From Bifidobacterium polysaccharolyticum (lineage in GTDB: Bacteria; Actinomycetota; Actinomycetes; Actinomycetales; Bifidobacteriaceae): a DNA stretch of 64,000 nucleotides. Location: positions 434,001 through 498,000 of the forward strand of contig NZ_JACFQG010000002.1 of the NCBI RefSeq assembly GCF_016101585.1, given 5' to 3'. This document shows, piece after piece, positions 36,592-50,460 of the stretch; position 1 is the stretch's first letter, and each line of letters opens with the position of its first letter. The notes beneath the pieces were generated by a model that was given only the letters and a program-made list of their open reading frames with translations, was not told the origin of the DNA and did not search any database. A program made the translations under genes and the position numbers.

Positions 36592-38040
36592 TCAGTCCTC
36601 GTCCTCAGCCACGCGGGAGTGGCTGTAGATCATCTTCATGGAGCAGATGAAGAGCACCAAGCCCAGCAGGATGATCACGCCGCCGATCATGAAGACATTG
36701 GCGTAGGTCGAAGCCAGGCCCTGCGCTGTGCCGGCCAGGCTGCCCGAACCCATGGATCCGTTGGCCATGAGCTGGCCGAAGAGGGCGACGCCGACAGAGC
36801 CGGTGATGGCCTGCAGGAGGTCGTTGAAGCCGAGCACACGCCCGGACTCCTCAGGAGCCACGGTCAGGGTCGCGGTGTCAACGATGGGCTGGTAGAAGAA
36901 GGAGGTGCCGAAGTAGTAGATGCAGGGCGCTACAGCCAGGGCCCAGATCTTGCCGGCAGGAATCAGGAAAGCGATGGCGATCAGACCGCCGCCCATGCAA
37001 GCCAGGGCCAGGATGACCGAAGCCTTGCGCCCGATCTTCTGGATGATAGGCCCGGCAGCGAATCCCATGATGCCAGCCAGGATGATGGACCAGACCAGCA
37101 GGTTGGAGACCTTGGAGGAGTCGATGCCGTACACGTTCAGACCAATGGCGTTGACGCCCGCGTTCAGGGTGTAGCTGAAGAAGTAGCCGACGAAGATGAC
37201 GGTCATGGTCATGGCGAAGGCAGGGTTGGTCAGCATCTTCGGAGTGATGAAGGGGTTGCTGGCCTTGTTGATGTATACCACGAATGCAACGAGGGTCACA
37301 ATGCAGGCGATGCCCCAGCCCCAGTTGATGTCGGTGAAGAACATGGTCACTGAAGCGGCGAACAGTCCGATCAGCGTGAAGCCGATGCCGTCGATCTTGA
37401 CGCCAGCTGCATGCTGGTCGGGCAGGTTCTTGGCCAGAACAGGAATGAAGAAGACGGCCAGGATGCCCACGCCGAAGAGCCAGCGCCAGTCAAGCAGGGT
37501 CATGTAGCCGGCCAGGAAGACTCCCAGGGCGGCGGCGAAGCGGAAGACCGCGACGAAGACACCGTACCAGAGCACGCGCTTCTTTTTCTCCACATACTTG
37601 GAGACCAGAACCAGGAAGATGGAGCCGGAAACCTGCCAACCGGCAGACTGCACCACACGGGCGGCGATGACGATCCAGATGCTGAAAGTGCCGAAGCACC
37701 CCAGAATCGACCCCAGCACGAAGACGATCGTACCCAGGATCATCATCTTCTTCAGGGAGACGAAATCGCCCAGGGATCCGTAGATGACGCAGACGATTCC
37801 CAGGATGATGCCCGGCAGGGAGGTGATCAGCGGCGCCAGATTGGCCTGGTTCAGCTGCTTGCCGATGTTCACGTAGATCATGCCGAAGGCCTGCTGTTGG
37901 AGCACGCCCAGGGTGAAGATGATCAGGACCACCGGGATGGCCACGCGGGCCATCTTGTTCATTTTCGCGAACTCGGGAGTCCCCTCCTCGGGAACGGGTA
38001 TGCCGTTCTTCTGCTCCTCGGAGACAGTTGACTCACTCAT
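36592..38040 (-). CDS. MFS transporter, 12-14 helices, in the nucleoside operon
   Basis: A 482-residue major facilitator superfamily protein with about 14 hydrophobic segments, resembling DHA2-type drug:H+ antiporters (YGSLGDFVSLKKMMILG after helix 2, LLDWRWLFGVG in helix 5-6). It is the last gene of the leftward operon, 39 bp after the nucleoside hydrolase, and has an AAGGAAAC-type ribosome site. In this context it may move nucleosides or export a purine or pyrimidine base left after hydrolysis; both are inferences. Confidence 0.85.
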   Translation of the reverse strand: MSESTVSEEQKNGIPVPEEGTPEFAKMNKMARVAIPVVLIIFTLGVLQQQAFGMIYVNIGKQLNQANLAPLITSLPGIILGIVCVIYGSLGDFVSLKKMMILGTIVFVLGSILGCFGTFSIWIVIAARVVQSAGWQVSGSIFLVLVSKYVEKKKRVLWYGVFVAVFRFAAALGVFLAGYMTLLDWRWLFGVGILAVFFIPVLAKNLPDQHAAGVKIDGIGFTLIGLFAASVTMFFTDINWGWGIACIVTLVAFVVYINKASNPFITPKMLTNPAFAMTMTVIFVGYFFSYTLNAGVNAIGLNVYGIDSSKVSNLLVWSIILAGIMGFAAGPIIQKIGRKASVILALACMGGGLIAIAFLIPAGKIWALAVAPCIYYFGTSFFYQPIVDTATLTVAPEESGRVLGFNDLLQAITGSVGVALFGQLMANGSMGSGSLAGTAQGLASTYANVFMIGGVIILLGLVLFICSMKMIYSHSRVAEDED

Positions 38041-38079: not shown

Positions 38080-39003
38080 CTACTGGCGCTGGACCCGGCC
38101 GACCCTGTCGACAAAGGCGGAGCGGAACCCGTCCACATCCACGTCCACGCAGACGCTGGCGTTGGCCTTGCCGCCCAGGATGCCGTCGTAATCGACCACC
38201 GTGGCGCCCAGGGTGAGCGGACTGGAAATCTCGACATCCACGAAGGCCTGGCGCATGGTGAACAGGTCGGGCTGGAGCAGGACCATGGCGGCGGAGGGGT
38301 CATACATCTTGATTCCCTCCTCGATATGTCCGCCGTCGTAGGACCGGAAGAGGGAGGCAACCATGCCGCCCACTTCGCCGGCTGCGTCCAGGTCGTCCAG
38401 GTCTCCGGCGACCAGATGGGCCTTGCGACCGATGTCCAGGCCGACCATGGTCACGGGCAGCCCGCTGCGGAAGACCATCTTGGCAGCCTCAGGATCGACG
38501 GAGATGTTGAACTCGCCATAGACCCCGATGTTGCCGCGTCCGGTGGAGCCTCCCATCATGACGATCCGGTCGATGTGGTCCTTGACCTCCGGGAAGGTGG
38601 CCAGCAGCAGGGCGATGTTGGTCAGAGGGCCCAGGGTCAGGATGGTGACCGGCTCATCGCTCTCCAGCAGCACCCGCCGCTCCTCCAGGACCGCATTGTT
38701 CTCGGTCAGCAGGCTGGTGTCCGGCTCAGGGAAGACGAATGACCCCATCCCTGACTTGCCGTGGGCTTCGGTGGCGAACCTGTTGTCACGCATGAGCGGG
38801 GCCGCAGCGCCACGGGCCACGGGGATGCGCCTGCCCAGGAAGGTCAGCAGCTTCAGGGCATTGTTGGTGGTGTGGCCGATGCCCACATTGCCGGACACCG
38901 AGGCTATCAGCCTGATGTCGAAGCTGGGCTCGTCGACCAGCATCGTAATGGCCGCAGCATCATCGATGCCGGGGTCCGTGTCGATGATCAGTGGTCTGGT
39001 CAT
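38080..39003 (-). CDS. Nucleoside hydrolase (ribonucleoside N-ribohydrolase)
   Basis: A 307-residue enzyme of the inosine-uridine nucleoside hydrolase family. The N-terminal calcium-binding signature D8-x-D10-PGI-D14-D15 (IIDTDPGIDDA) is intact, and GPLTNIALLL, MMGGS and GEFNISVDPEAA motifs follow. It splits nucleosides into base and ribose in the cytoplasm. The start at 39003 follows AAAGGAG. It sits between ECF transporter genes and an MFS gene, opposite a LacI-ribokinase fusion, so its released ribose has an obvious next enzyme. Confidence 0.94.
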   Translation of the reverse strand: MTRPLIIDTDPGIDDAAAITMLVDEPSFDIRLIASVSGNVGIGHTTNNALKLLTFLGRRIPVARGAAAPLMRDNRFATEAHGKSGMGSFVFPEPDTSLLTENNAVLEERRVLLESDEPVTILTLGPLTNIALLLATFPEVKDHIDRIVMMGGSTGRGNIGVYGEFNISVDPEAAKMVFRSGLPVTMVGLDIGRKAHLVAGDLDDLDAAGEVGGMVASLFRSYDGGHIEEGIKMYDPSAAMVLLQPDLFTMRQAFVDVEISSPLTLGATVVDYDGILGGKANASVCVDVDVDGFRSAFVDRVGRVQRQ

Positions 39004-39037
39004 TGCTTCACTCCTTTTGCTCTTGTCGTGTCCAAAC

Positions 39038-39856
39038 TCAAATTCCTGCCCCCGCTTTGGCCCGCCGGGCTGCACCGACAAAGCCGGAAACGGTGAAGAC
39101 CGGGCCCTCCAACCCGACCTGCCGTGCCACTCGGGTGATGGGCGGAGGTGTCACATAGGCCTGCTTGAGCACATCCTCCCGGGCGAAGACCTCCTCGCGG
39201 CTGCCATCCAGCAGGACCCGGCCATGCTGCATGAGCACAACCCTGGGGAAGTTGCGGGTGACGAACTTCATGTCGTGGGAAATCGTGATGCAGAGCTTGC
39301 CTTGGTCCCGCAGACGGGCGATGATGGCAGCCAGTCGATCATTGCCAGCCTTGTCCTGCCCGCATGTGGGCTCATCAAAGACCACGGCACCCGTATCCAT
39401 CATGAGGACGGAACCGATGGCGCAGAACTTCTTTTCAGTAGGGCTCAGATCAAAAGGATGATCGTCCAACCGGTCCGCCAGACCCACTAACTCAGCCACC
39501 TGCTCCAGACGTCGCCCTATCAGATCCTGATCGAACCCAAGCTGCCGGGGACCGAACTCAAATTCCTTACGCACACTGTCCAGAAAGAGCTGATCGTCGG
39601 GATTCTGAAAGACGTACCCCACCTTCCGGGCCCACTGGGCCATGTTCGCCGTTGCCAGATCGACGCCGTCAATCAAGATCCGACCACCGGTCGGTCTAAG
39701 GATGCCGTTCAGATGCTTGGCCAGGGTGGTCTTGCCGGCGCCGTTCTGACCGATCAGCGCCACGGGCCGGTCGCCTTCGAGGGTCAGATTCACTCCGTCC
39801 AAAGCACGATGGCCATGCGGGTAGACGTACTCCAGATGCTCCAGGTCGATTTTCAT
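39038..39856 (-). CDS. ECF transporter ATPase with degenerate signature motif
   Basis: A 272-residue EcfA-type ATPase with Walker A GQNGAGKTT, Q-loop FQNPDDQLF and Walker B AVVFDEPTCGQD, and a switch histidine in ISHDMKF. The ABC signature, normally LSGGQ, is LSPTEKK, so one ATP site of the heterodimer should be impaired. The C-terminal 40 residues are Ala/Gly/Arg-rich. It overlaps the other ATPase gene by 4 bp and precedes the nucleoside hydrolase gene by 35 bp. Confidence 0.9.
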   Translation of the reverse strand: MKIDLEHLEYVYPHGHRALDGVNLTLEGDRPVALIGQNGAGKTTLAKHLNGILRPTGGRILIDGVDLATANMAQWARKVGYVFQNPDDQLFLDSVRKEFEFGPRQLGFDQDLIGRRLEQVAELVGLADRLDDHPFDLSPTEKKFCAIGSVLMMDTGAVVFDEPTCGQDKAGNDRLAAIIARLRDQGKLCITISHDMKFVTRNFPRVVLMQHGRVLLDGSREEVFAREDVLKQAYVTPPPITRVARQVGLEGPVFTVSGFVGAARRAKAGAGI

Positions 39857-40701
39857 CGCAGCGCCTCCCGAATCATGCGTACCGCCTGGTCCTCGCGTAC
39901 GGGCAGATCCGGCAGATCGAATCCTGCGTCCTGCAAACCTCTGCCGAGCTTGACGTAATCCGGTATGTCAATCCCCCACTTCACGGTCTCGGGATCGGTG
40001 AAGACCTCCTCGGGAGTGCCCATGGCACGGACCCGACCAGCGCCCAGGACCATGACCTGGTCGGCGCATCGGGCGACCCGCTCCATATCGTGATCCACCA
40101 TGACTACGGTGATCCCCTCCTGGTTGAGTCGCTTGACAATGTCGAAGATCTCCTCGCTGCCAAGCGGATCCAGCTGAGCCGTGCATTCGTCCAGAACCAG
40201 GATGTCCGGTTCCATGATCAAGGTCGAGCCGAGGGCCACCCGCTGCACCTGGCCGCCGGAAAGCTCCAGAGGGTTCTTGTCGAGCAGATCCTCGATATGC
40301 ATAAGAGCAGCCACCCGAGCCACCTTGGCATGCATGGTTTCACGTGAAACCCCATGATTGCCCAATCCGAAAGCCAGTTCCTCGGCCACGGTCCCGGCCG
40401 TATAAGAGAGCTGATTGAAGGGGTTCTGAAAGACCAGGCCCACGTATCTGGACAGATCGGCAATGGTCGAAGTGGCTACATCCCTGTCCTTAATTCTGAC
40501 GCTTCCCTTGGATTTGCCTACGAAATAGTGTGGAATCAGACCGACCAAGGCGTTGCAAAGGGTCGATTTGCCTGATCCATTGGCTCCGACGATGCAGAAG
40601 AAGCTGCCCTGTTCGACGCTAAAGCTCACCCGCTTCAAGGTGGTCCGATCGGCATCACGGTATCTGAAGGAGAAGTCCTCCACTCGTATGACCTTGGTCA
40701 T
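39853..40701 (-). CDS. ECF transporter ATPase
   Basis: A 282-residue EcfA ATPase with all motifs intact: Walker A GANGSGKST, FQNPFNQLS, signature LSGGQVQRVALG, Walker B ILVLDECTAQLDP and VDHDMERVA. The start at 40701 follows GGAGG; an upstream in-frame ATG at 40716 lies before that site. Overlaps EcfT by 4 bp and the next ATPase by 4 bp. Pairs with the degenerate ATPase to drive the shared EcfT. Confidence 0.92.
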   Translation of the reverse strand: MTKVIRVEDFSFRYRDADRTTLKRVSFSVEQGSFFCIVGANGSGKSTLCNALVGLIPHYFVGKSKGSVRIKDRDVATSTIADLSRYVGLVFQNPFNQLSYTAGTVAEELAFGLGNHGVSRETMHAKVARVAALMHIEDLLDKNPLELSGGQVQRVALGSTLIMEPDILVLDECTAQLDPLGSEEIFDIVKRLNQEGITVVMVDHDMERVARCADQVMVLGAGRVRAMGTPEEVFTDPETVKWGIDIPDYVKLGRGLQDAGFDLPDLPVREDQAVRMIREALR

Positions 40702-41516
40702 GCCCGACCTCCCCACTGGATGGCCAAGGTGATCATGCCTGCGCGCGAGAGGCAGGCGAGCATCAGGGCCAGCACCAGAAAAACGGTGAACAGGATGGTC
40801 ATGACGGTGTCACTGCGCCGCCAGACCACCTCAAGGTAGCTGGTCTGCCGCACTCCCCGGATGCCGAATCCGCGAGTCTCCAGGGTCATCCCGCGTTCCT
40901 GCGAATCCGTCAGGGAGGAAAGAACAACCGGTCCGAGCAGGGGCAGAAAGGCCCGCGCCCGGGAAATCAAACCGCCGCCGGTCTCCAGACCACGCGCATG
41001 CTGAGACTGCTCAATGATCGCAATCCTGCGCTGCATCTGCGGGACCACATTCAGGCTGGCCAGAATCAGGTAGCCGATCTTCGAAGGCACGCCGATCTGT
41101 GTCAGAGCAGCAACCAGGCGACCCATGTAGGTAGTTTTATTGGTCAGGTAGAAGGATCCCAGGAAGACCAGAAGTGTCACTACGATTTTGGCCGCGTAGA
41201 GGCTGCCTTCAAGACCCAGCTCGGCAAATCGCAGGTCGAGAATGACCTTGGTATTCCTCGGGCTGTAGCACCCCTGGATGAACAGCAGCATGAGCGTAAC
41301 GGGAATGCCGAACCCCAGCATCACGCCCGAGAAGGGCCGGAGCACCCGGGCCAGTGCCGCTGCGATAAAGAGCATGACGATGATTCCCAGACCCAAGGTA
41401 AAGTCCGGCCAAACCAAGGTCGCCAAGCCCAATGAGCACACGCCGACGATCTTGGCCATGGGATGCATGCGAGCCAATGGAGAATCGGGAATCCCGTTTG
41501 ATTCAGGGCCAGGCAT
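40698..41516 (-). CDS. ECF transporter transmembrane subunit EcfT
   Basis: A 272-residue integral membrane protein with about six hydrophobic segments. Conserved EcfT features include the cytoplasmic coupling region with RGLETGGG and a later RGFG (TRGFGIRG) motif that dock the two ATPases. Its first base shares the stop codon region of the S-component gene (1-bp overlap), and its end overlaps the ATPase gene. Couples ATP hydrolysis to the S component encoded upstream. Confidence 0.9.
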   Translation of the reverse strand: MPGPESNGIPDSPLARMHPMAKIVGVCSLGLATLVWPDFTLGLGIIVMLFIAAALARVLRPFSGVMLGFGIPVTLMLLFIQGCYSPRNTKVILDLRFAELGLEGSLYAAKIVVTLLVFLGSFYLTNKTTYMGRLVAALTQIGVPSKIGYLILASLNVVPQMQRRIAIIEQSQHARGLETGGGLISRARAFLPLLGPVVLSSLTDSQERGMTLETRGFGIRGVRQTSYLEVVWRRSDTVMTILFTVFLVLALMLACLSRAGMITLAIQWGGRA

Positions 41517-42304
41517 CAGCGTTCAGACCCTTGGGTATGATCACAGCCCAAGTCCGCGGGGGTACCTGGCGATGAGCCCCGATCAGCTTCTGCCCCGATG
41601 TCGACCTTCACCGGCTGCGATGAACTCTCTTGACTGGACGCTCCAGCCGCTTCGTGCCCATCCTCGTCTTCGTCCTCATCCAAGTCGTCCAGATCGGCCT
41701 GGTCCTCGCTACCGTCCAGGGCATACTGGCTCAGGAAGCGTTTGGGGATTCGACGCACAATCACATAAGCAATCAGGACGGTGATGCCCTTGTCGATCAG
41801 ATTCTCCAGCATGGAGGAGGAGAGCACAGAGATAACGATGTTTTTTACAGCCACCACCAGTGCAGCTGTGAGGACCGAGGTGCCATTGACCCCGGTGGCG
41901 CCTCCGTAGACGAGCACGGTGATCAGAGAGGCGGTGACCGTGTTGACCAGGGCGCAGGCCAGCCAGACCAGGACGACTCCCCATATCCGTTTAAAGAGCC
42001 CGGCCTTGACCATGTATCCGATCACCAGGCCGCACAGAACGCTGGAGAGCGCGTAGGGCAGATAGACCGGATTCGCCACCAAGGCGAGGAAGACGTTGGT
42101 CAGCAGTCCACACAGGGCAGCCACCCAGGGACCGGACAGACAGGCGATGACCGTGGTGCCGATCATGTCCAGGAAAAGCGGCAGCTTGAGGGTAGAGCTC
42201 AGAGTCCCGCCGATGAGGTTGATGCCCACTGCGATGGGTATCAGCACCAAGGATTTTGTCGAAAACTGCGCAGTGATTCCTCTCCATAACGATCGCGCGC
42301 TCAT
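41516..42304 (-). CDS. ECF transporter S component with long acidic tail, probably for nucleosides
   Basis: A 262-residue substrate-capture subunit. The first ~190 residues hold about six membrane segments typical of S components (for example AVGINLIGGTLSSTLKLPLF and the Ala/Gly-rich first helix). The last ~65 residues are cytoplasmic and strongly acidic (DDLDEDEDEDG), which is unusual for this family. It heads the six-gene operon. The substrate is not deducible from sequence; a nucleoside, base or ribose is inferred from the hydrolase and the ribokinase fusion. The start at 42304 follows AAAGGCGG. Confidence 0.85.
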   Translation of the reverse strand: MSARSLWRGITAQFSTKSLVLIPIAVGINLIGGTLSSTLKLPLFLDMIGTTVIACLSGPWVAALCGLLTNVFLALVANPVYLPYALSSVLCGLVIGYMVKAGLFKRIWGVVLVWLACALVNTVTASLITVLVYGGATGVNGTSVLTAALVVAVKNIVISVLSSSMLENLIDKGITVLIAYVIVRRIPKRFLSQYALDGSEDQADLDDLDEDEDEDGHEAAGASSQESSSQPVKVDIGAEADRGSSPGTPADLGCDHTQGSER

Positions 42305-42393
42305 AATCCGTACCGCCTTTGGTCCTTGAATGTCGATTTCTGCAGATGGCCGTCGCTCACAACCAGATCCGCATCACCGCTTTGAGAAACCAC

Positions 42394-42402
42394 TTTAGTA
42401 AA
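42394..42402. promoter_or_regulatory. Candidate operator in the divergent ECF / LacI-ribokinase region
   Basis: TTTAGTAAA is an odd palindrome within CACTTTAGTAAACAACTTT. On the minus strand the ECF operon has TTGACA (42443 to 42438 approximately) with a weak -10 about 17 bp later, so this site would lie downstream of that promoter. The 251-bp region between 42304 and 42556 contains no gene. Binding by the fusion protein is inferred. Confidence 0.4.
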
Positions 42403-42555
42403 CAACTTTCATTGACAGAGACTATCAACAGCCGGATGGGGTGTCAAATGCGAAACCTCCGATGACGATCTCTCAGGTAAGCTTGATTCGCTAGATCCAA
42501 CAGGTCGACAGAGCCGTTCGCCGGAGCGTCAGAGATGAGGAGGACAGGAAACCAC

Positions 42556-44427
42556 ATGAACATCAAGGACATTGCTCAACTTGCCGGCGTATCCACATCG
42601 ACGGTCTCCAAGATTGTGAATCACAGGGACGCGAGCATCACAGCCGCCACGCGCGACAGGGTCCTTGAACTGGTCAGGAAGTACCACTACACGCCCTACG
42701 GATCCTCCAAACCCAACACCACCACCTGGAGAATCGGAGTCCTGCTGAGCTCATCCATCTCCATGGACTCCACCTTGGATGGGATCATCCAGCAGGCACA
42801 AAAGTCGGGGTACGGCACCCTGGTTTTCAACAGCTACGGCAATCACGACCAGGAGGAACGCAACATCCTGGCAGCTCTGGAACATCGAGTGGATGGCATG
42901 GTCTGGGAGCCGATCGACCGCACAAGCCTGGCCTTGAAAAGCAAGATCGAAGCACAAGGGATTCCCGAATTGACCATTGGACCCCTGGGAGACGACCGGA
43001 CCGCGCTCATGCCCTATGAGGAGGCTGCATACAGTCTTACTGAAGAGCTGATCAAGCGCCACCACACCAGCATCGCCTGTCTGCTCTCACCGGGCAGACG
43101 GACCCAGAGCTTCCTGCACGGTTATCGTCGCTGCTTGTTCGACCACAACATCCAATACCACACTGACATGGTCCTGGAAACCATCGGCGAGGACCTGACC
43201 CAAGTCTTGGAGAACCGGCAGGTCACCGGAATCGTGGCATCCCACTATCACCATGCCCTGGAATTCCTCCAGTTCGCCGAATCCATGCATTACCGTCTGC
43301 CCCAGGACCTCTCCCTGGTCTCCCTGATGAACGACACCAACGTGCACCTACGCTACCCTGGCAGCCCGGAGATATCGTCCTACGTCATGCGCAATGCCGA
43401 CTTCGGTGCCTACTTGTGCCGACGGATCATCCACGCCATCGAACATGAATCCCAGCCAAGCGAGGCTTTCGAGCACGTCTTCGCCTTGGACGGCGAGCAG
43501 ACTGTCAGCCGGCCCCCGGACCAGCAATGCAAGAAGATCGTGGTAGTCGGCAGCATCAACGTGGACACCTACCTGACCGCCCCCAACCTGCCCAAGGCGG
43601 GCATGACCACCACGACCAGAAACTTCGCCTCCACACCGGGCGGCAAGGCCACCAACCAGGCGGTAGGCGTGGCCAGGCTGCAGCATCAAGTTTCCCTGAT
43701 CGGCAATGTCGGCAGTGATCCGGCCGCAGACTACATCTACAAAACCATGAGGCAAGCCCATGTGGATGCCACCGGTGTGCGCAGAGTCATCGGCGCGGAC
43801 ACGGGCAAAGCCTACATCTTCGTCGACAGCAAGGGCGAGTCGATGATCTCCCTGGTGGCAGGCGCCAACGAGTCCCTGACCCCGGACGACATCACCGAGC
43901 GCGACCAGATCTTCCGGAACGCCGGCTATTGCCTGATCCAGACAGAAATCCCTATGGACACTGTCGCCGAGGCATGCAGAACAGCCAAGCGCCACCAGGC
44001 CGCCACCATCGTCAAACCGTCGTCCTGCGACCACCTGCCTGAAGACCTGCTGACTTCAATCGACATCCTGATCCCGAATCTCAACGAGTTGAACACCCTG
44101 ATACCCGGACCAGGATCCGTGGCAGACAAGGCGAAACAGTTCATCAACGGCGGGGTGGGCAAGGTCATCATCACCCTGGGCGAGCACGGCTGCACCCTGG
44201 TCACCGCCAGCGGACACAAGGACTTCCCGGCCCACGAGACCCGAGCAATCGACGACACCGGCGCCAGCGATGCCTTCATCAGTGCCCTGGCCTCCTATCT
44301 GTGCAGCGGATGCTCCCTGGACAAAGCCGCCCACATTGCTAATCTGGCCGCCGGCTTCAGCGTCGCCCACGAAGGCGTCATCCCCTCCCTGATCAACCGC
44401 CGCCAGCTGGAGGGCCTGATTGACTGA
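42556..44427 (+). CDS. LacI-type regulator fused to a ribokinase-family kinase
   Basis: A 623-residue two-part protein. Residues 1-50 are a LacI helix-turn-helix (MNIKDIAQLAGVSTSTVSKI), and residues ~58-320 a LacI-type sugar-binding domain. From about residue 326 (KKIVVVGSINVD) to the end it is a full-length PfkB/ribokinase domain with GSINVD, GGKATNQAVGVARL, an FVDSKGE loop and the catalytic motif TGASDAF (D572 as base; usual motif TGAGDAF). Each half has a complete single-protein length. The ATG at 42556 follows GGAGGACAGG. It is divergent from the nucleoside hydrolase/ECF operon, so it may sense and phosphorylate ribose while controlling that operon. Confidence 0.9.
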   Translation: MNIKDIAQLAGVSTSTVSKIVNHRDASITAATRDRVLELVRKYHYTPYGSSKPNTTTWRIGVLLSSSISMDSTLDGIIQQAQKSGYGTLVFNSYGNHDQEERNILAALEHRVDGMVWEPIDRTSLALKSKIEAQGIPELTIGPLGDDRTALMPYEEAAYSLTEELIKRHHTSIACLLSPGRRTQSFLHGYRRCLFDHNIQYHTDMVLETIGEDLTQVLENRQVTGIVASHYHHALEFLQFAESMHYRLPQDLSLVSLMNDTNVHLRYPGSPEISSYVMRNADFGAYLCRRIIHAIEHESQPSEAFEHVFALDGEQTVSRPPDQQCKKIVVVGSINVDTYLTAPNLPKAGMTTTTRNFASTPGGKATNQAVGVARLQHQVSLIGNVGSDPAADYIYKTMRQAHVDATGVRRVIGADTGKAYIFVDSKGESMISLVAGANESLTPDDITERDQIFRNAGYCLIQTEIPMDTVAEACRTAKRHQAATIVKPSSCDHLPEDLLTSIDILIPNLNELNTLIPGPGSVADKAKQFINGGVGKVIITLGEHGCTLVTASGHKDFPAHETRAIDDTGASDAFISALASYLCSGCSLDKAAHIANLAAGFSVAHEGVIPSLINRRQLEGLID

Positions 44428-44771: not shown

Positions 44772-46841
44772 ATGCAACATTCAACATTTACTATCGACGG
44801 CCAAGCCCTGAAGTGGACAAGCGACGGTGAATACCTTCGCATCGAGCCCTGGGGAACAGATTCGATACGCGTCCGATCCTCGCAGATGCATGAACCTGAA
44901 GACCCGGACTGGGCGCTTTTACGCGACCACCACGAGCCTGCCGATGCGGTGCACATAAGCATCGACGATCAACGAGGACAGGCCACCATAATCAACGGAT
45001 CTTTAATGGTCAAGGCGCAGGCTTCGGGCGGCATTGACACAGGCAACGGCTATACCGACAAGTGCCTGCTCAGCTTTTGGCGCGCGGACGGCGAGCTGCT
45101 CTTCAGCGAGATGAGCGATGGCGGCTCCCTGAATTTAAGAGCGCGTTCTTTCACTCCCATCGCGGGAGGCGACCACCAGGTCAAGGTAACATTCGTGCCT
45201 CCAGAAAACGAACGTCTGTATGGCATGGGCGAATATCAGCAGAACATCATGAATCTGAAAGGCTGCACTCTCGAACTGGCCCATAGGAACTCGCAAATCT
45301 CCATACCTTTCGTCGTCTCCAGTAGTGGATACGGATTCCTATGGAACAACCCAGCCGTCGGTTCCGTCAGTTTTGGGAAAAATAAGACTCAGTGGACGGC
45401 GGACAGCACTCGACAGATTGATTATTGGGTTACAGCCGGTGCCGATTATCGCTCAATTATGGCCCATTACGCAGACGCTACCGGTCATGCTCCTCAGATG
45501 CCTGAATGGGGTCTTGGCTTTTGGCAGAGCAAGCTTCGCTATTGGAACCAGGATCAATTGCTGGAGGTCGCCAGAAAATTTAAAAAGCGCGATATCCCTC
45601 TGGACCTCATTGTCATTGACTTCTTCCATTGGCCTCACATGGGTGATTTCAGATTCGAAGACGAATTCTGGCCAGATCCCGTCAGCATGAGCAACGAATT
45701 GCACAAGATGGGGATTCGACTCATGGTGTCAGTCTGGCCGCAAATAGCACTGACTTCTGAAAACTATCCAGAGATGAAAGCCAAGAATCTGCTGGTACGA
45801 GCAGACCACGGCGAAGACATCGGCATGATGTTCGAGGGACCCAGCCAGTTCTACGACGCCACCAACCCTAGAGCCCGCCAATATGTATGGGAGAAATGTC
45901 GTGAGCACTATGCCGATGTCGGTGTCGATGCCTTCTGGCTGGATGAAGCCGAACCGGAGTATGGCACTTACGATTTCAGCAATTACCGCTACTGGGCTGG
46001 GCCTGCTCAGCAAACGGCCAATTTGTATCCGAGGGAATACAACAAGGGATTCTACGAGGGGCAACTGGCCTACGGGCGCCAGGGACAGATCGTTAACCTC
46101 ACCAGATGCGCATGGGCCGGATCCCAGCAATATGGGGCTCTTGTATGGTCGGGCGATGTTGCATCCACCTTCGAAGCGTTCAGAGCGCAAATTACTTGTG
46201 CCATCCATATGGGCATGGCCGGCATTCCTTGGTTCACCACCGACCTGGGAGGCTTCCACGATGGCGATATCGACGATCCCACCTTCCGTGAACTGTTGTT
46301 GCGGTGGGCACAATTCTCCTGCTTCTCGCCCGTCATGCGCAATCACGGTGACCGCAGCCAGCATCACCCCGATGGGACCACCAAGACCGCCATCACTACA
46401 GCGCAGGGCGAGCGGCGATTGCCGTCCGGGGCGAGCAATGAACCGTGGAGCTACGGCAAGTCCGTCGAAGATATCTATGTCAAGTTCATCAAGATCCGAG
46501 AGCATCTTCGCCCTTATCTGCGTGAGCTGTTTGCCCAGGCACATGAGGACGGGCAGCCGCTTATCAGAGGACTGTTCTACGAATTCCCCCATGACGATGC
46601 CGCCTCCGATATCGCCGACGAGTATATGCTCGGACCTGATCTGCTGGTAGCCCCCGTGGTAGAGGAAGGAGCCAGATCTCGACAGGTCTACCTGCCTGGT
46701 GACGCGACTACGCAGTGGCAGGATCTTCGCGACGGAGCAATGTACGACGGCGGTCAGACGATCACCGCAGAAGCCCCGCTGGATACTCTGCCGGTATTCG
46801 CAAGGGACAGCAGAAACCACGAGCTGCTGGGCATACTCTGA
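44772..46841 (+). CDS. GH31 alpha-glycosidase (alpha-glucosidase/alpha-xylosidase type)
   Basis: A 689-residue retaining glycosidase of family 31. An N-terminal beta-sandwich (to about residue 225) ends in the YGMGEYQ motif; the TIM barrel has the nucleophile D391 in FWLDEAEPEYG, the acid/base candidate D462 in VWSGDVAST and the later PVMRNHGDR motif; a C-terminal beta domain follows. WLDEAEPE differs from WLDMNE of alpha-glucosidases and is seen in alpha-xylosidase-like branches. No signal peptide. The ATG is preceded by GGAAGGG. It is convergent with a GPH-type MFS transporter, and may act on the same sugar as the GH42 module. Confidence 0.93.
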   Translation: MQHSTFTIDGQALKWTSDGEYLRIEPWGTDSIRVRSSQMHEPEDPDWALLRDHHEPADAVHISIDDQRGQATIINGSLMVKAQASGGIDTGNGYTDKCLLSFWRADGELLFSEMSDGGSLNLRARSFTPIAGGDHQVKVTFVPPENERLYGMGEYQQNIMNLKGCTLELAHRNSQISIPFVVSSSGYGFLWNNPAVGSVSFGKNKTQWTADSTRQIDYWVTAGADYRSIMAHYADATGHAPQMPEWGLGFWQSKLRYWNQDQLLEVARKFKKRDIPLDLIVIDFFHWPHMGDFRFEDEFWPDPVSMSNELHKMGIRLMVSVWPQIALTSENYPEMKAKNLLVRADHGEDIGMMFEGPSQFYDATNPRARQYVWEKCREHYADVGVDAFWLDEAEPEYGTYDFSNYRYWAGPAQQTANLYPREYNKGFYEGQLAYGRQGQIVNLTRCAWAGSQQYGALVWSGDVASTFEAFRAQITCAIHMGMAGIPWFTTDLGGFHDGDIDDPTFRELLLRWAQFSCFSPVMRNHGDRSQHHPDGTTKTAITTAQGERRLPSGASNEPWSYGKSVEDIYVKFIKIREHLRPYLRELFAQAHEDGQPLIRGLFYEFPHDDAASDIADEYMLGPDLLVAPVVEEGARSRQVYLPGDATTQWQDLRDGAMYDGGQTITAEAPLDTLPVFARDSRNHELLGIL

Positions 46842-46894
46842 TATATACATCTGTACACCACGTGCAGATTGCAGATTATCCGATCACTAATAAT

Positions 46895-46920
46895 GGGTCA
46901 GGACCATCTCGTCCTGACCC
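46895..46920. terminator. Bidirectional terminator between GH31 and the MFS gene
   Basis: GGGTCAGGAC/GTCCTGACCC is a perfect 10-bp stem with a 6-nt loop, midway between two convergent genes. Flanks are A+T-rich on both sides (ACTTCATTCTTC on the plus strand, ATTATTAG on the minus strand). Confidence 0.8.
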
Positions 46921-47006
46921 ACTTCATTCTTCAAGATAAGTTGATGAGACACCGTGGTTTGTTGGGACCATGTGCCGATATGCTGATCAGCTCATCATTT
47001 GCCTCG

Positions 47007-48314
47007 TTATTTGACCTTGCGGATAAAGAAAATCAGGCAGACGCCGACGGCCGCCAGAACAGCTGCCAACGGAAAGACCCCGCTGTAACCGACAATCTTG
47101 ATGATCGCGGCAGAGAAAATGGGTCCCAGCACCTGACCTCCGTTATTGGCAATGTTGAGAATACCAAGATCCTTGGCTGCTGTCCGCTGATCAGGCAGCA
47201 CTTCTATATTCAGCGCCTGATCCACGGAATTGAACATTCCCATGCCAATGCCCACAACCACGGCGTATGCCAGCATAATGAAGGGACGATTGGTCAAAGC
47301 AGGTAGAAACGACCCAACCGCTATCAGCAGACCTGCGATGATGACCGGCACTTTCCGTATATGCAATTTGTCAGAAACAGGACCGGCGCCGATGCACATG
47401 ACGATTGCGGTCACCATCATGATCATGGAAATAGCCGAGACATATGCCTGCAGAGCGTTGCCTTTGAGCATTACGTAGTCAGTCAATATGTAAAGCTGAT
47501 ATCCAGAAATCGCGAATGAAGCGGTTTGTATGCTGAGCTTACCGAACAAGGCCAGGTAATAGTCCCGCACATGATGGGTCGGGAATACAAAATTATCAGA
47601 GAACGTCTTCCACGTTACCGGAGAAACAGGCATGTTTTTAGTCGAACCTTCGCGCAGTATCAGAGCAGCCACAGGACCCGACAACAAAGACATGACTGCC
47701 AAAACCACAAATCCGATCTTCGGCATAGGCAGGAAGAAAGAGGCCAACATCTGTCCGCCGTATTGTCCGGCCGAATTGCCGAGTGCGTAGACGGAAGATA
47801 TCGTTCCACGGTACTTCGGCGCAGTCCGATCGGCAATGACCGCAATCAACGGCGCCACAATCATGTTCAGGAAAATCATATATACCGAATCCGATAGGAC
47901 CACTTGCCACACGGCAGAGCATTGGCCCCAGAACAGCACACAGACAAAGGTCCCAACTGATCCGGCGACGATCCATGGCGTCCGACGACCCCATCGAGAA
48001 CGTGTCCGATCCGACAGACCACCTTCCACGATGTTGGCGATAGTGGATACGATCATGGCCACCGTCGACATCAATGCGATATCGCCCGTTTTATTGGCAG
48101 GATCTATTCGCGCCACTTGCTGAGGAACCAGAACACCTACCAGGCCGAGATACGGCCCCAACCAAAGCAGGACACCTAGTGCGAGCGCCACACCCGTGCG
48201 CACAGGAACGCGATGCTGTTGATCATCACGGGGAGTCATCCAGGCAGCAGAGGGTTCATTATCCGTCTCCGCAGTCTTCCCTTGTGCACTGTTCATTGAC
48301 CTTGCGGAATCCAT
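47007..48314 (-). CDS. MFS transporter, GPH/SLC45-like (galactoside module)
   Basis: A 435-residue permease with 12 predicted helices and the helix 2-3 loop GGLSDRTRSRWGRRTPW that marks the glycoside (GPH/SLC45-like) branch. The start at 48314 follows AAGGTGAGG; a longer in-frame reading runs back into the GH42 gene. It begins 7 bp after the GH42 stop and is cotranscribed with it, so it probably imports a beta-galactoside or related oligosaccharide. Confidence 0.9.
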   Translation of the reverse strand: MDSARSMNSAQGKTAETDNEPSAAWMTPRDDQQHRVPVRTGVALALGVLLWLGPYLGLVGVLVPQQVARIDPANKTGDIALMSTVAMIVSTIANIVEGGLSDRTRSRWGRRTPWIVAGSVGTFVCVLFWGQCSAVWQVVLSDSVYMIFLNMIVAPLIAVIADRTAPKYRGTISSVYALGNSAGQYGGQMLASFFLPMPKIGFVVLAVMSLLSGPVAALILREGSTKNMPVSPVTWKTFSDNFVFPTHHVRDYYLALFGKLSIQTASFAISGYQLYILTDYVMLKGNALQAYVSAISMIMMVTAIVMCIGAGPVSDKLHIRKVPVIIAGLLIAVGSFLPALTNRPFIMLAYAVVVGIGMGMFNSVDQALNIEVLPDQRTAAKDLGILNIANNGGQVLGPIFSAAIIKIVGYSGVFPLAAVLAAVGVCLIFFIRKVK

Positions 48315-48321
48315 ATCATCC

Positions 48322-50460
48322 TCACCTTCCTGAATCCATAGGATTGTCGGCAAGGACATGCGTCTCCTGTAGTAGAACCACGTCCCAGGGGCCCAGCTCA
48401 ACACTGCTCAAAGGCTCATTCTTGCCCAGCAATGTACATGAAACAGGCACGGCGATCCTGTGCGTCTGCCAGCTCCAGTTGAAGAGGAAATGCAGCCTTC
48501 GACCATACCGATTGACCGCCGAGGAGTGCGATATTGTCGTCTGACCAGCCAACCACGGATCGTCTGGAAGCAGATAGTCGAACAACGAAGCAGCCAGAGC
48601 CTCGTTGGGGACCGTGCCGATCATCGTTACTCTTCCCTGACCGGCAACATGGCTGGTGATCAGGGGAAATTGTGAGAAGTGGGGGTGGTTGCTTGTAGCC
48701 AGAATTTCCGCTCCCTCGCTCTGTAGACAATCAATCCACTCAGTGGCAGCAGATCCAGGACGCAATTTAAATGAGTCCGTTCCCTTAACTGATATAGGGG
48801 ATTTGATATTGGAAAATTCCTGATAGTCCGCGCCAGCAAGATCATCAAGCATTGACGGTTTGGTTTCCATACGCGCGCGTGCGTACTGATCCGCATATGC
48901 CGTACGCGGTCCCAGGACCAGATGCCCGCCGGCTTTTACATATTCACGCAACCATGAAAGCAGTGCATCAGAACATATATACGCCCCCGGAACCAGTAAC
49001 AGGGGATACTGGTTGACGAATGCAGTCGGCGCGACTACAGGTTTTCCAGCAGAGCCATCGATAAGATGCGTATCCTGAATCATTCGCACCTGATGCCCAG
49101 TGCGGAATGCACCACGATAAAAAGCCGTAAACATATGATCATACGATCCGGCATTGCGTGCACGGTGAGCATCTCCTGCACCATTTATCGCTGTGTATGG
49201 TTCGAATGTCAGGCCCCAACGTGACCCGACTGAATACAGGATGGCCACATCAGCATCCGGCTTAAGGTCCGTCACTGCATCGCCGGCAGCTGCCAGCTCT
49301 CCGCCAAGCTGAGATATCTCCGCATAAACACGTCCCGGCTTGCGGTCATGGGGGAGAATACCTCCCCAATACATCTCAGTACCATAATGCAACTGCTGCC
49401 AATGCCAGTATTCGATGAGATCCGCTCCACGCGAGACGAATTGCCAACCAGCTTGGCGCCATTGCCCCTTATAGCCAGGGAAGTTGTCTGCGGAGCCGCC
49501 GATGGGTCCGCCGTCCGTTTCCAGCACAAAGAAAGGAGCGGATTTCAGCGAATACGTCCTGTCGGCCATCTGGGCAATCGTCCAGGGGCCAGAAGGATAC
49601 CAAGCATCTTCTGCCATATCCGGTTCAGGCAATTGCAAGCCGTCTTGCATATGGAAATACGGATCTGAACCTGCTACATCCAAATGCTCGGAAGACCTGG
49701 CCTCATCAACAGCCTCACGCCCCAAAGCCATATTCACCGTGATGAATTGATCGGAGCGACAATGCTGACGGATCAGGCGACTTTGCCAGGCGAGCATATC
49801 ATCGGTGAGCAGCGCCTGATACCGATGCCAGGCAATATCGTATTGTGGCTGGCAGTTGCCTTCGGGCTTCCATAAGTCATCCCAAGTAGATAACTCATGA
49901 GACCAGTACGTCAACCCCCATGCCTTATTCAGATGTTCCACGCTACCGTATTCTCTGCGCAGATAATCTTTAAAACCTTCGAAGGCATCTGTGGAATAGT
50001 TCAGCCGTAAGCCAGGTTCATTATGTAATTGCCAGCCGATGACTGATGGATGCCCGGCATAGCGATCCACAATCTTGCCGATAAGCCTGGCTGCGTAATA
50101 CCGAAACACAGGGTGGCTATAGCTATGCTCCTCTCGCGAGCCGAAAGGAACCTTCTGACCATGGTCATCGCTCAAGGCAATCTCTGGATACTTACGCACC
50201 ATCCATTGAGGTATGGCAAAGGTCGGCACCCCGATAATCGCTTGAATATTGTTCTCAGCAGCCTTATCGAGAACTGGCTCCAGCCAATCCAGTGAAAATT
50301 GTCCGTCTTCCGGTTCCCAGTGTGACCAGCTTCCTTCGCCCACACGGATCACATTGATATGGGCTTTACGCATGAGTTGCATGTCGGCATCAAGGTTCGA
50401 GCTGGGTTGATATTCGTCATAATACGCAGCGCCGAACAGTATATGGTCGAGAGACTTCAT
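48322..50460 (-). CDS. Beta-galactosidase, GH42
   Basis: A 712-residue retaining glycosidase of family 42. The N-terminal TIM barrel carries the acid/base E148 in WQLHNEPG and the nucleophile candidate glutamate in FFVLETDGGP; a trimerisation-type domain with LLVPGAYI and a C-terminal beta domain (LFNWSWQTHRI) follow. No signal peptide is present. It would split beta-galactosides or, in some members, alpha-L-arabinopyranosides in the cytoplasm. The start at 50460 follows AAGGGAAGG. Preceded by a strong promoter with two operators and a LacI gene on the same strand. Confidence 0.94.
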   Translation of the reverse strand: MKSLDHILFGAAYYDEYQPSSNLDADMQLMRKAHINVIRVGEGSWSHWEPEDGQFSLDWLEPVLDKAAENNIQAIIGVPTFAIPQWMVRKYPEIALSDDHGQKVPFGSREEHSYSHPVFRYYAARLIGKIVDRYAGHPSVIGWQLHNEPGLRLNYSTDAFEGFKDYLRREYGSVEHLNKAWGLTYWSHELSTWDDLWKPEGNCQPQYDIAWHRYQALLTDDMLAWQSRLIRQHCRSDQFITVNMALGREAVDEARSSEHLDVAGSDPYFHMQDGLQLPEPDMAEDAWYPSGPWTIAQMADRTYSLKSAPFFVLETDGGPIGGSADNFPGYKGQWRQAGWQFVSRGADLIEYWHWQQLHYGTEMYWGGILPHDRKPGRVYAEISQLGGELAAAGDAVTDLKPDADVAILYSVGSRWGLTFEPYTAINGAGDAHRARNAGSYDHMFTAFYRGAFRTGHQVRMIQDTHLIDGSAGKPVVAPTAFVNQYPLLLVPGAYICSDALLSWLREYVKAGGHLVLGPRTAYADQYARARMETKPSMLDDLAGADYQEFSNIKSPISVKGTDSFKLRPGSAATEWIDCLQSEGAEILATSNHPHFSQFPLITSHVAGQGRVTMIGTVPNEALAASLFDYLLPDDPWLAGQTTISHSSAVNRYGRRLHFLFNWSWQTHRIAVPVSCTLLGKNEPLSSVELGPWDVVLLQETHVLADNPMDSGR

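Follow-up and report, generated by a model that had tools for sequence, protein, structure and literature searches.

A LacI-type repressor joined to a ribokinase domain in bee-gut-type Bifidobacterium and other bacteria, often beside nucleoside-use genes

A stretch of 64,000 nucleotides from Bifidobacterium polysaccharolyticum (contig NZ_JACFQG010000002.1, positions 434,001 to 498,000; the whole stretch is referred to as the window) was found to encode a protein of 623 amino acids in which a LacI-type repressor, made up of a helix-turn-helix (HTH) and a periplasmic binding protein (PBP)-like core, is joined to a ribokinase of the PfkB family. The carrier is a bee-gut-type Bifidobacterium, and the same joined protein is present in other bacteria, often beside genes for nucleoside use. 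The interpretation favored here, at only just under an even chance, is that the fusion locally represses genes for nucleoside uptake and hydrolysis and that inducer sensing has moved into the fused, catalytically attenuated ribokinase. The kinase is taken to be the sensor because its ligand sites are retained, whereas every member examined has lost the LacI sugar residues and most have lost the hinge leucine; it is taken to be a sensor rather than an enzyme because it has usually lost a glycine related to catalysis, Gly254. The architecture, the losses and retentions of residues, the conservation of the operator, and the gene context are read directly from the sequences. A first-pass annotation of the same DNA had likewise described a repressor-ribokinase protein tied by context to nucleoside or ribose use, and this part stands; its proposal of ribose sensing by the LacI domain, with a kinase that consumes the inducer, was not upheld as the default.

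The open reading frame (ORF) at 42556 to 44427 on the forward strand is single and uninterrupted, with no stop codon (Table 1). Pfam matches were obtained to LacI (PF00356; residues 2 to 47, E value 3.4e-13, 49.6 bits against a cut-off of 27), to the PBP-like core (PF13377/PF00532; residues 71 to 178 and 163 to 303, the latter to Peripla_BP_3, PF13377, at 2.8e-12 and 47.5 bits against 26.5), and to PfkB (PF00294; residues 326 to 612, 5.5e-51, 174.1 bits against 25.8), bearing out the earlier description of an HTH and sensing domain joined without a stop to a complete PfkB domain. The top NCBIfam model for the fusion was that of ribokinase, TIGR02152, at 253.1 bits and under its equivalog cut-off of 299.65; the N-terminal half matched the RbsR and CcpA models, far under their cut-offs. 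The best 60 of 92 matches among sequences of solved structures aligned best to either the repressor half or the kinase half, and the solved sequences nearest to the fused kinase were ribokinases. An alternative upstream ATG at 42535 is the start given in the ORF list; at the position of 42556, fused relatives start with ATG in 52 of 55 cases and with GTG in 2. Purifying selection was evident on every part of the protein, with ratios of nonsynonymous to synonymous substitution (dN/dS) of 0.065 for the HTH, 0.095 for the PBP core, and 0.093 for the kinase in a sample of 8 asteroides-group sequences (28 pairs).

The repressor halves of 55 fused proteins were aligned with 16 control LacI proteins, including two near-copies, and are described here in PurR numbering. 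The controls derive from 20 rows, of which 7 were dropped (2 fusion pieces, RbsB, one LacI-HTH protein with a divergent core, and 3 duplicates of E. coli references), with PurR, LacI, and RbsR added once each. Arg196 and Asp275, which we take to be ligand contacts in PurR, were found in none of the fused proteins, compared with 14/16 controls for Arg196 (Lys in the other 2) and 12/16 for Asp275; their places were taken mostly by Phe (38) or Val (11) and by Arg (25), Lys (11), or Met (10), respectively. Asp248 was similarly lost (0/55 versus 14/16), and position 221 was deleted in 49/55 fused proteins and in no control. In the hinge, Leu54 was retained in 4/55 fused proteins versus 14/16 controls and Ala51 in 10/55 versus 15/16. 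The window protein has Phe, Tyr, and Met in place of Arg196, Asp248, and Asp275 and does not have the ARxL motif of the helix that inserts its leucine into DNA. Among 15 standalone Lachnospiraceae LacI proteins, drawn from the best scorers against the family profile, Arg196 and Asp275 were both present in all 15.

Other features of the repressor half are maintained. The recognition-helix Lys at position 20 is present in all 55 fused proteins, and the stretch preceding the kinase (residues 311 to 326) is of constant length in 50/55. The PBP pocket does not appear to be merely eroded, as it has common residues of its own, namely Glu122 (43/55), Pro123 (46/55), Arg192 (44/55), His247 (42/55), and Arg or Lys at 275 (36/55). 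Fractional identity to the window protein was 0.48 for the kinase and 0.40 for the PBP core in six proteins of a second actinobacterial class, 0.50 and 0.36 in nine Lachnospiraceae and Enterococcus proteins, and 0.37 and 0.17 in six distant proteins; within the genus, PBP core and kinase were alike (0.69 versus 0.67 and 0.54 versus 0.53).

The kinase alignment comprised 56 fused kinases, one of them from a frameshifted copy (G900), and is given in the numbering of E. coli RbsK, whose aligned residues are presumed to act in ribose binding, ATP binding, and catalysis. Asp16, Gly41, Gly42, Lys43, Asn46, Glu190, and Gly228 were invariant (56/56), Thr223 and Asp249 were each kept in 55/56, the catalytic Asp255 in 54/56 (Asn in the other two), and Asn14, Glu143, and Asn187 each in 52/56. 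The second Gly of the GAGD motif, Gly254, was kept in only 14/56, with Ala in 20, Ser in 17, and Cys in 5. Neighboring standalone kinases had this Gly in 16/16 cases, and a standalone-type set of 49 rows, in which E. coli RbsK, two fusion pieces, and a kinase of a different kind were counted, had it in 48, the sole exception being a piece of a broken fusion. A study of human ketohexokinase (PMC2651755) describes the amide of the matching Gly as touching the bridge between the beta- and gamma-phosphates and GAGD as the anion hole. In the window protein, the ribose-site residues D16, GGK, N46, and E143 are all present, and departures from RbsK occur at Gly254 and at motif neighbors such as Thr250 and Gly44-Ala45. 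Taken together, the alignments point to a group of fused kinases in which the substrate and nucleotide sites have mostly been kept and the catalytic anion hole has probably been relaxed. The GGKATNQ and GASD motifs are present exactly as first noted, and the suggestion that they mark a weak kinase or a pure ATP/ribose sensor is compatible with the replacement of Gly254 in 42/56. In four Bifidobacterium relatives (L028 to L031), Glu143 is replaced by Val, Asn187 is lost in three, and Asp249 in one, which looks like decay of a kinase site within a fusion that has stayed intact.

The identity of the ligand, the direction of the response, the allostery, and the extent of any residual kinase activity are inferred as follows. 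The fusion would repress, locally, both its own gene and the divergent operon for nucleoside uptake and hydrolysis, with the HTHs of one dimer, or possibly two dimers, binding the overlapping palindromes at 42382 to 42414. The PBP core would serve mainly as a dimer scaffold and relay, its LacI-style sugar binding gone, and the fused ribokinase domain would be the sensor, shutting its lid on ribose freed by the nucleoside hydrolase together with ATP. Lid closure would be relayed through the fixed-length linker and the core, loosening the HTHs. The altered anion hole would slow or stop phosphoryl transfer, so that the inducer would be read and not quickly consumed. Extended to all members, the proposal would be that sensing in this repressor family passed from the PBP core to a ribokinase, the pocket and hinge lever being retired, the anion hole blunted, the ribose and ATP sites kept, and the operator mostly without CpG and often doubled, such that the protein reports ribose plus ATP; this wider statement is put forward tentatively, at somewhat less than an even chance.

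Searches in other genomes, as the first-pass annotation had advised, showed the domain pair to be widespread. The fusion of the window genome (G000) is 93 to 95% identical to seven named, full-length Bifidobacterium records (mizhiense, choladohabitans, mellis, asteroides, and others), and a full-length, stop-free fusion was found in 16/27 genomes of the genus. A stop or frameshift near 43520, raised earlier as a possible artifact, is therefore unlikely given these relatives and the purifying selection on all parts. With at most three candidates scored per genome, a full-length fusion was found in 2/396 genomes drawn from across the phylum (the window's own genome counted) and in 9/396 of another class of the same phylum, which we guess to be Coriobacteriia. 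In the family of a Lachnospiraceae metagenome-assembled genome (MAG), searched in the same way, a match at an E value of 1e-70 was obtained in 32/397 genomes; in 31 the repressor and kinase halves shared a single frame (that in G844 reaching the contig end), and in G900 they were in separate frames. A draw from the whole phylum of this MAG, again so searched, yielded the fusion in 1/398 genomes, namely the MAG itself. Two plasmid records of Enterococcus raffinosus (1.1 to 1.2 Mb) also carry the fusion, at 41% identity over the full length. A species-specific fusion was ruled out by the copies in the genus, the second class, the Lachnospiraceae family, and Enterococcus.

In a quick tree of the 55 fused proteins, of which the root and many forks are unsure, the 16 Bifidobacterium rows formed one branch (support 99) adjoining 7 of the 9 second-class rows, within a grouping to which Lachnospiraceae and Enterococcus rows also belong. 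The tree therefore suggests a single fusion event followed by spread between phyla. With the LacI-half profile, no unfused member of the subfamily was met in the 27 genus genomes, where all 16 places scoring at least 427 bits were fused and the next scored 157, or among the matches listed for 200 Lachnospiraceae-family genomes (at most 11 candidates scored per genome). Among those listed matches, the 16 places with at least 230 bits comprised 14 fused proteins in frames of at least 635 residues and 2 broken fused copies, and the next LacI scored 178 bits. Broken copies of the fusion, with halves in separate or interrupted frames, lie at G930 C2 108663-110553 (L098) and G900 C7 212200-214079 (L069); G930 also has an intact fusion about 10 kb from L098. 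A second locus in the window's own genome (contig C5, about 46600 to 48700; L002, 1462 to 3537), listed as a 704-residue frame, was rejected as a second fusion, being a standalone lacI and a ribokinase gene in one frame (345 and 358 residues) parted by a TGA. Such an in-frame lacI-TGA-rbsK pair is an arrangement that could yield a fusion of this type by stop loss.

A palindrome-constrained search (width 16), run on 300 bp of upstream sequence for each of 47 fusions, returned the palindrome TTagGAAAAtaTTTTCctAA with a log-likelihood of 232.7, compared with 22 to 27 in three shuffled sets. This search covered 47 of 55 upstream regions, 8 near-identical asteroides-group regions being left out, and used 60 starts on the real data against 30 on each of the three simple shuffles. 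The conserved upstream palindrome of the family is TTaGGAAAAtaTTTTCCtAA. With leave-one-out matrices for 45 of the 47 loci (L001 and L073 being without a matched long locus), the best upstream site was the top site of the whole locus (9 to 22 kb) in 35/45 and among the top three in 38/45; this ranking is strong but not independent, because near relatives stay in the training sets. The ranks given for the window in Table 1 were obtained with a matrix lacking asteroides-group sites. Among 37 loci with a best score of at least 8, a second site lay exactly 13 bp away in 26, and every other offset was seen in at most 2 loci; shifted by 13, the 20-bp motif is partly similar to itself, and this self-similarity contributes to the second sites without accounting for them. 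A central CG was present in 2/41 predicted sites of the fusion family, compared with 1,173 of 1,251 even LacI-family palindromes in a LacI survey (PMC4052901).

A fixed-pattern search was also made in 10 genomes, one of which (G028) has no known fusion and served as a bystander. Sites with 0 or 1 mismatch stood at the fusion locus in 7/10 (G004, G008, G103, G638, G648, G659, and G687) and therefore suggest a local regulon for the fused repressor. G622 had one such site elsewhere and none at its fusion, and the window genome had one 2-mismatch match, away from the fusion, whose own site was not matched because it has 3 mismatches. A reversed-pattern control gave equal or more matches in G000, G004, G008, G028, G622, and G638, so that 2-mismatch matches are uninformative. 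No promoter or terminator was found in a scan of 42290 to 42580.

The first-pass annotation was right in substance that the fusion faces a nucleoside hydrolase operon; in the divergent unit the hydrolase comes fifth, after the S and T components and the two ATPases of an energy-coupling factor (ECF) transporter (Table 1). The true start of the hydrolase probably lies inside its ORF. In a clustering-based census of 50 loci (including the window, L010, L012, and L014; ten cluster members or neighbors were checked by Pfam), a hydrolase was present in 30, a standalone ribokinase in 23, an ECF-S component in 11, and a Bmp-type lipoprotein in 10. A fixed, stricter search of 47 loci, without the broken L091 and L098 and the near-identical L010, L012, and L014, detected a hydrolase in 28, a ribokinase-like gene in 26, and either in 37. 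By group, the hydrolase was present in 7/7 Bifidobacterium loci, 9/9 second-class loci, and 12/31 others. Twenty control loci, strict because they were chosen as the standalone LacI genes scoring best against the family, had a hydrolase in 5/20 versus 28/47 (Fisher P = 0.015). One control, L198, shares a contig with a fusion; without it, the control counts are 4/19 for the hydrolase and 7/19 for a ribokinase-like gene. A link to the hydrolase is thus supported by gene context, strongly in Actinomycetota and less elsewhere.

Table 1. Predicted features of the fusion gene, its upstream region, and the divergent unit in the window
Feature	Position	Strand	Remark
LacI-HTH/PBP-like core/ribokinase (PfkB) fusion	42556..44427	+	623 residues
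LacI-type HTH	42559..42696	+	Residues 2-47; recognition helix VSTSTVSK
Degenerate hinge	42691..42729	+	Residues 46-58; without canonical hinge-helix ARxL
PBP-like core	42730..43509	+	Residues 59-318; LacI-family sugar residues replaced
Interdomain linker	43510..43533	+	Residues 319-326
Ribokinase-type PfkB domain	43534..44421	+	Residues 327-622
GGKATNQ ribose-site motif	43639..43659	+	
GASD replacing GAGD	44260..44271	+	Altered anion hole; catalytic Asp572 retained
Predicted operator TTGAGAAACCACTTTAGTAA	42382..42401	.	Rank 1 of all positions in 64-kb window
Second, overlapping predicted operator	42395..42414	.	13 bp on; rank 3 in window
ECF transporter S component	41516..42304	-	First gene of divergent unit; CD3073-like, 102 bits vs cut-off 180
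ECF transporter T component	40698..41516	-	
ECF ATPase 1	39853..40716	-	
ECF ATPase 2	39038..39856	-	
Ribonucleoside hydrolase, RihC-like	38080..39081	-	377 bits vs cut-off 382
Major facilitator superfamily (MFS) transporter	36592..38040	-	End of divergent unit

The CD3073-like ECF-S component opposite the fusion recurs at other loci together with nucleoside hydrolase or ribokinase genes, a context that suggests a nucleoside as its substrate. The MFS transporter is of a drug-efflux type by profile matches far under their cut-offs and may be a nucleoside carrier. Genes of the ADP-ribosylglycohydrolase type were seen near the fusion in L016 (4614 to 6805, with a creatininase-family gene in addition), L102, L104, and L115, hinting at ADP-ribose-type sources of ribose at these loci.

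Several results weigh against sensing by an attenuated kinase. A working kinase would explain the strong conservation of Asp255 and the ATP site no less than a sensor would, and Ser or Ala at position 254 still supplies a backbone amide. The Glu143-to-Val change in L028 to L031 should weaken ribose binding. It was considered whether a separate ribokinase drives the loss of Gly254, and the idea was dropped, as no trend was seen over 45 loci (Gly254 kept in 9/25 with a ribokinase-like neighbor and 4/20 without). A ribokinase-like gene was also not significantly more frequent at fusion loci than at the control loci (26/47 versus 8/20, P = 0.29), such that this link is no stronger than in similar LacI relatives; the argument from separate ribokinases is weaker than first thought, and confidence in a sensing kinase is slightly lower as a result. 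Neither gene was detected at 10/47 loci, in three of which (L109, L117, and L118) the contig stops just upstream of the fusion. The remodeled PBP pocket may bind another, perhaps phosphorylated, ligand. Finally, an AlphaFold model of the fusion built from 9 sequences (predicted local distance difference test score of 51.3, predicted template modeling score of 0.40) was too poor for domain packing. The fused domain may retain some kinase activity, above all in the window genome, where the single further match to the ribokinase model at an E value of 1e-25 lies on a different contig, next to a lacI of its own.

The most serious rival, although an unlikely one, is that of a bifunctional repressor-kinase, as the first-pass annotation had proposed, whose active ribokinase uses up the inducer and so limits induction. 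The window protein keeps the residues examined for ribose, ATP, Mg, and catalysis, its changes lying at Gly254 and motif neighbors; its fused domain matches the ribokinase model as well as the genome's other match does (255.7 versus 247.6 bits, both under the cut-off), no separate ribokinase was seen in the divergent operon, and the absence of a correlation between Gly254 loss and a separate ribokinase is in its favor. As a default it is opposed by the loss of the PBP sugar Arg and Asp in all 55 proteins, by the replacement of Gly254 in three-quarters of the fused kinases, by the loss of the catalytic Asp in two, and by the separate ribokinase-like gene at 26 loci. Moreover, GAGD is found in the closest relatives with a separate ribokinase in the operon (L026 and L027) and GASD in the window group, which has none there; takeover would predict the opposite, although no clear trend emerges over the 45 loci. 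We also consider it improbable that a remodeled, basic PBP pocket senses ribose 5-phosphate or a nucleotide as the phosphorylated product made or delivered by the kinase. The common Arg192, His247, and Arg/Lys275 would suit such a ligand, but residue 275 is Met in the window protein, six distant proteins are without most of the basic residues, the two members lacking the catalytic Asp would be hard to accommodate, and the pocket is without structural support.

E. coli LacI has a C-terminal tetramerization helix, and the kinase sits where that helix would be. The kinase might thus be an oligomerization module only, holding two LacI dimers as a tetramer on the doubled operator, with induction by some other signal. 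The recurrent 13-bp spacing agrees with this, but ligand-site residues that are nearly invariant would be unexpected in such a module, and we regard it as quite improbable. That two genes were joined by a sequencing error in one assembly has a negligible chance of being correct: the lacI-TGA-rbsK pair of the same genome makes such an error conceivable, but an assembly error or frameshift is already refuted by the full-length copies throughout the genus and in other families and phyla. Sensing by the fused, attenuated ribokinase is the favored interpretation.

If correct, it would represent a natural replacement of the sensor domain within the best studied family of bacterial repressors, with both halves of the change readable as loss (pocket and hinge) and gain (kinase). 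A single protein and its operator would then suffice for testing how an enzyme turns into a sensor, and the fusion would be a likely switch by which bifidobacteria and Lachnospiraceae control nucleoside salvage. No description of a LacI-ribokinase (PfkB) fusion was found in the openly licensed PubMed Central literature, although domain-architecture databases may well list it. The terms fused, fusion, kinase domain, and PfkB are all absent from the main text of a paper on bifidobacterial RbsR regulators (PMC4746261) and from the LacI survey (PMC4052901).

Among known systems, the RbsR subgroup of the LacI/GalR family is the closest on the repressor side, sharing both an HTH and a PBP-like core and, as predictions for the fusion, an even palindromic operator and local control over nucleoside hydrolase and transporter genes. 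Bifidobacterial RbsR2 and RbsR3 control rihC, nucleoside transporters, and rbsK, and their operator TGATAAAACGTTTTATCA has a central CG (PMC4746261), whereas the fusion motif is the palindrome TTaGGAAAAtaTTTTCCtAA given above. The fused proteins further differ from this subgroup in being without Arg196 and Asp275 and mostly without the hinge leucine. With RbsK of the PfkB family they share D16, GGK, N46, E143, NxxE, and Asp255, as well as the best model, TIGR02152; unlike RbsK, they are joined to a repressor, have Gly254 replaced in most members, and fall under the cut-off of that model. A profile match was also obtained to PRK09954-type sugar kinases. These, exemplified by E. coli YeiI, are presumably PfkB kinases whose N-terminal extension is an HTH of another type, without a PBP core. 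Yeast Gal3/Gal1 provide a kinase-derived inducer sensor that is catalytically lost or bifunctional, but they are eukaryotic, have the GHMP kinase fold, and act via Gal80. The ROK proteins have a different kinase fold and no LacI core. The likeness to them lies in the principle, as in the ROK repressors NagC, Mlc, and XylR and their sugar kinase relatives, described in PMC555942, a kinase-type sugar-binding fold combined with DNA binding constitutes a sensor.

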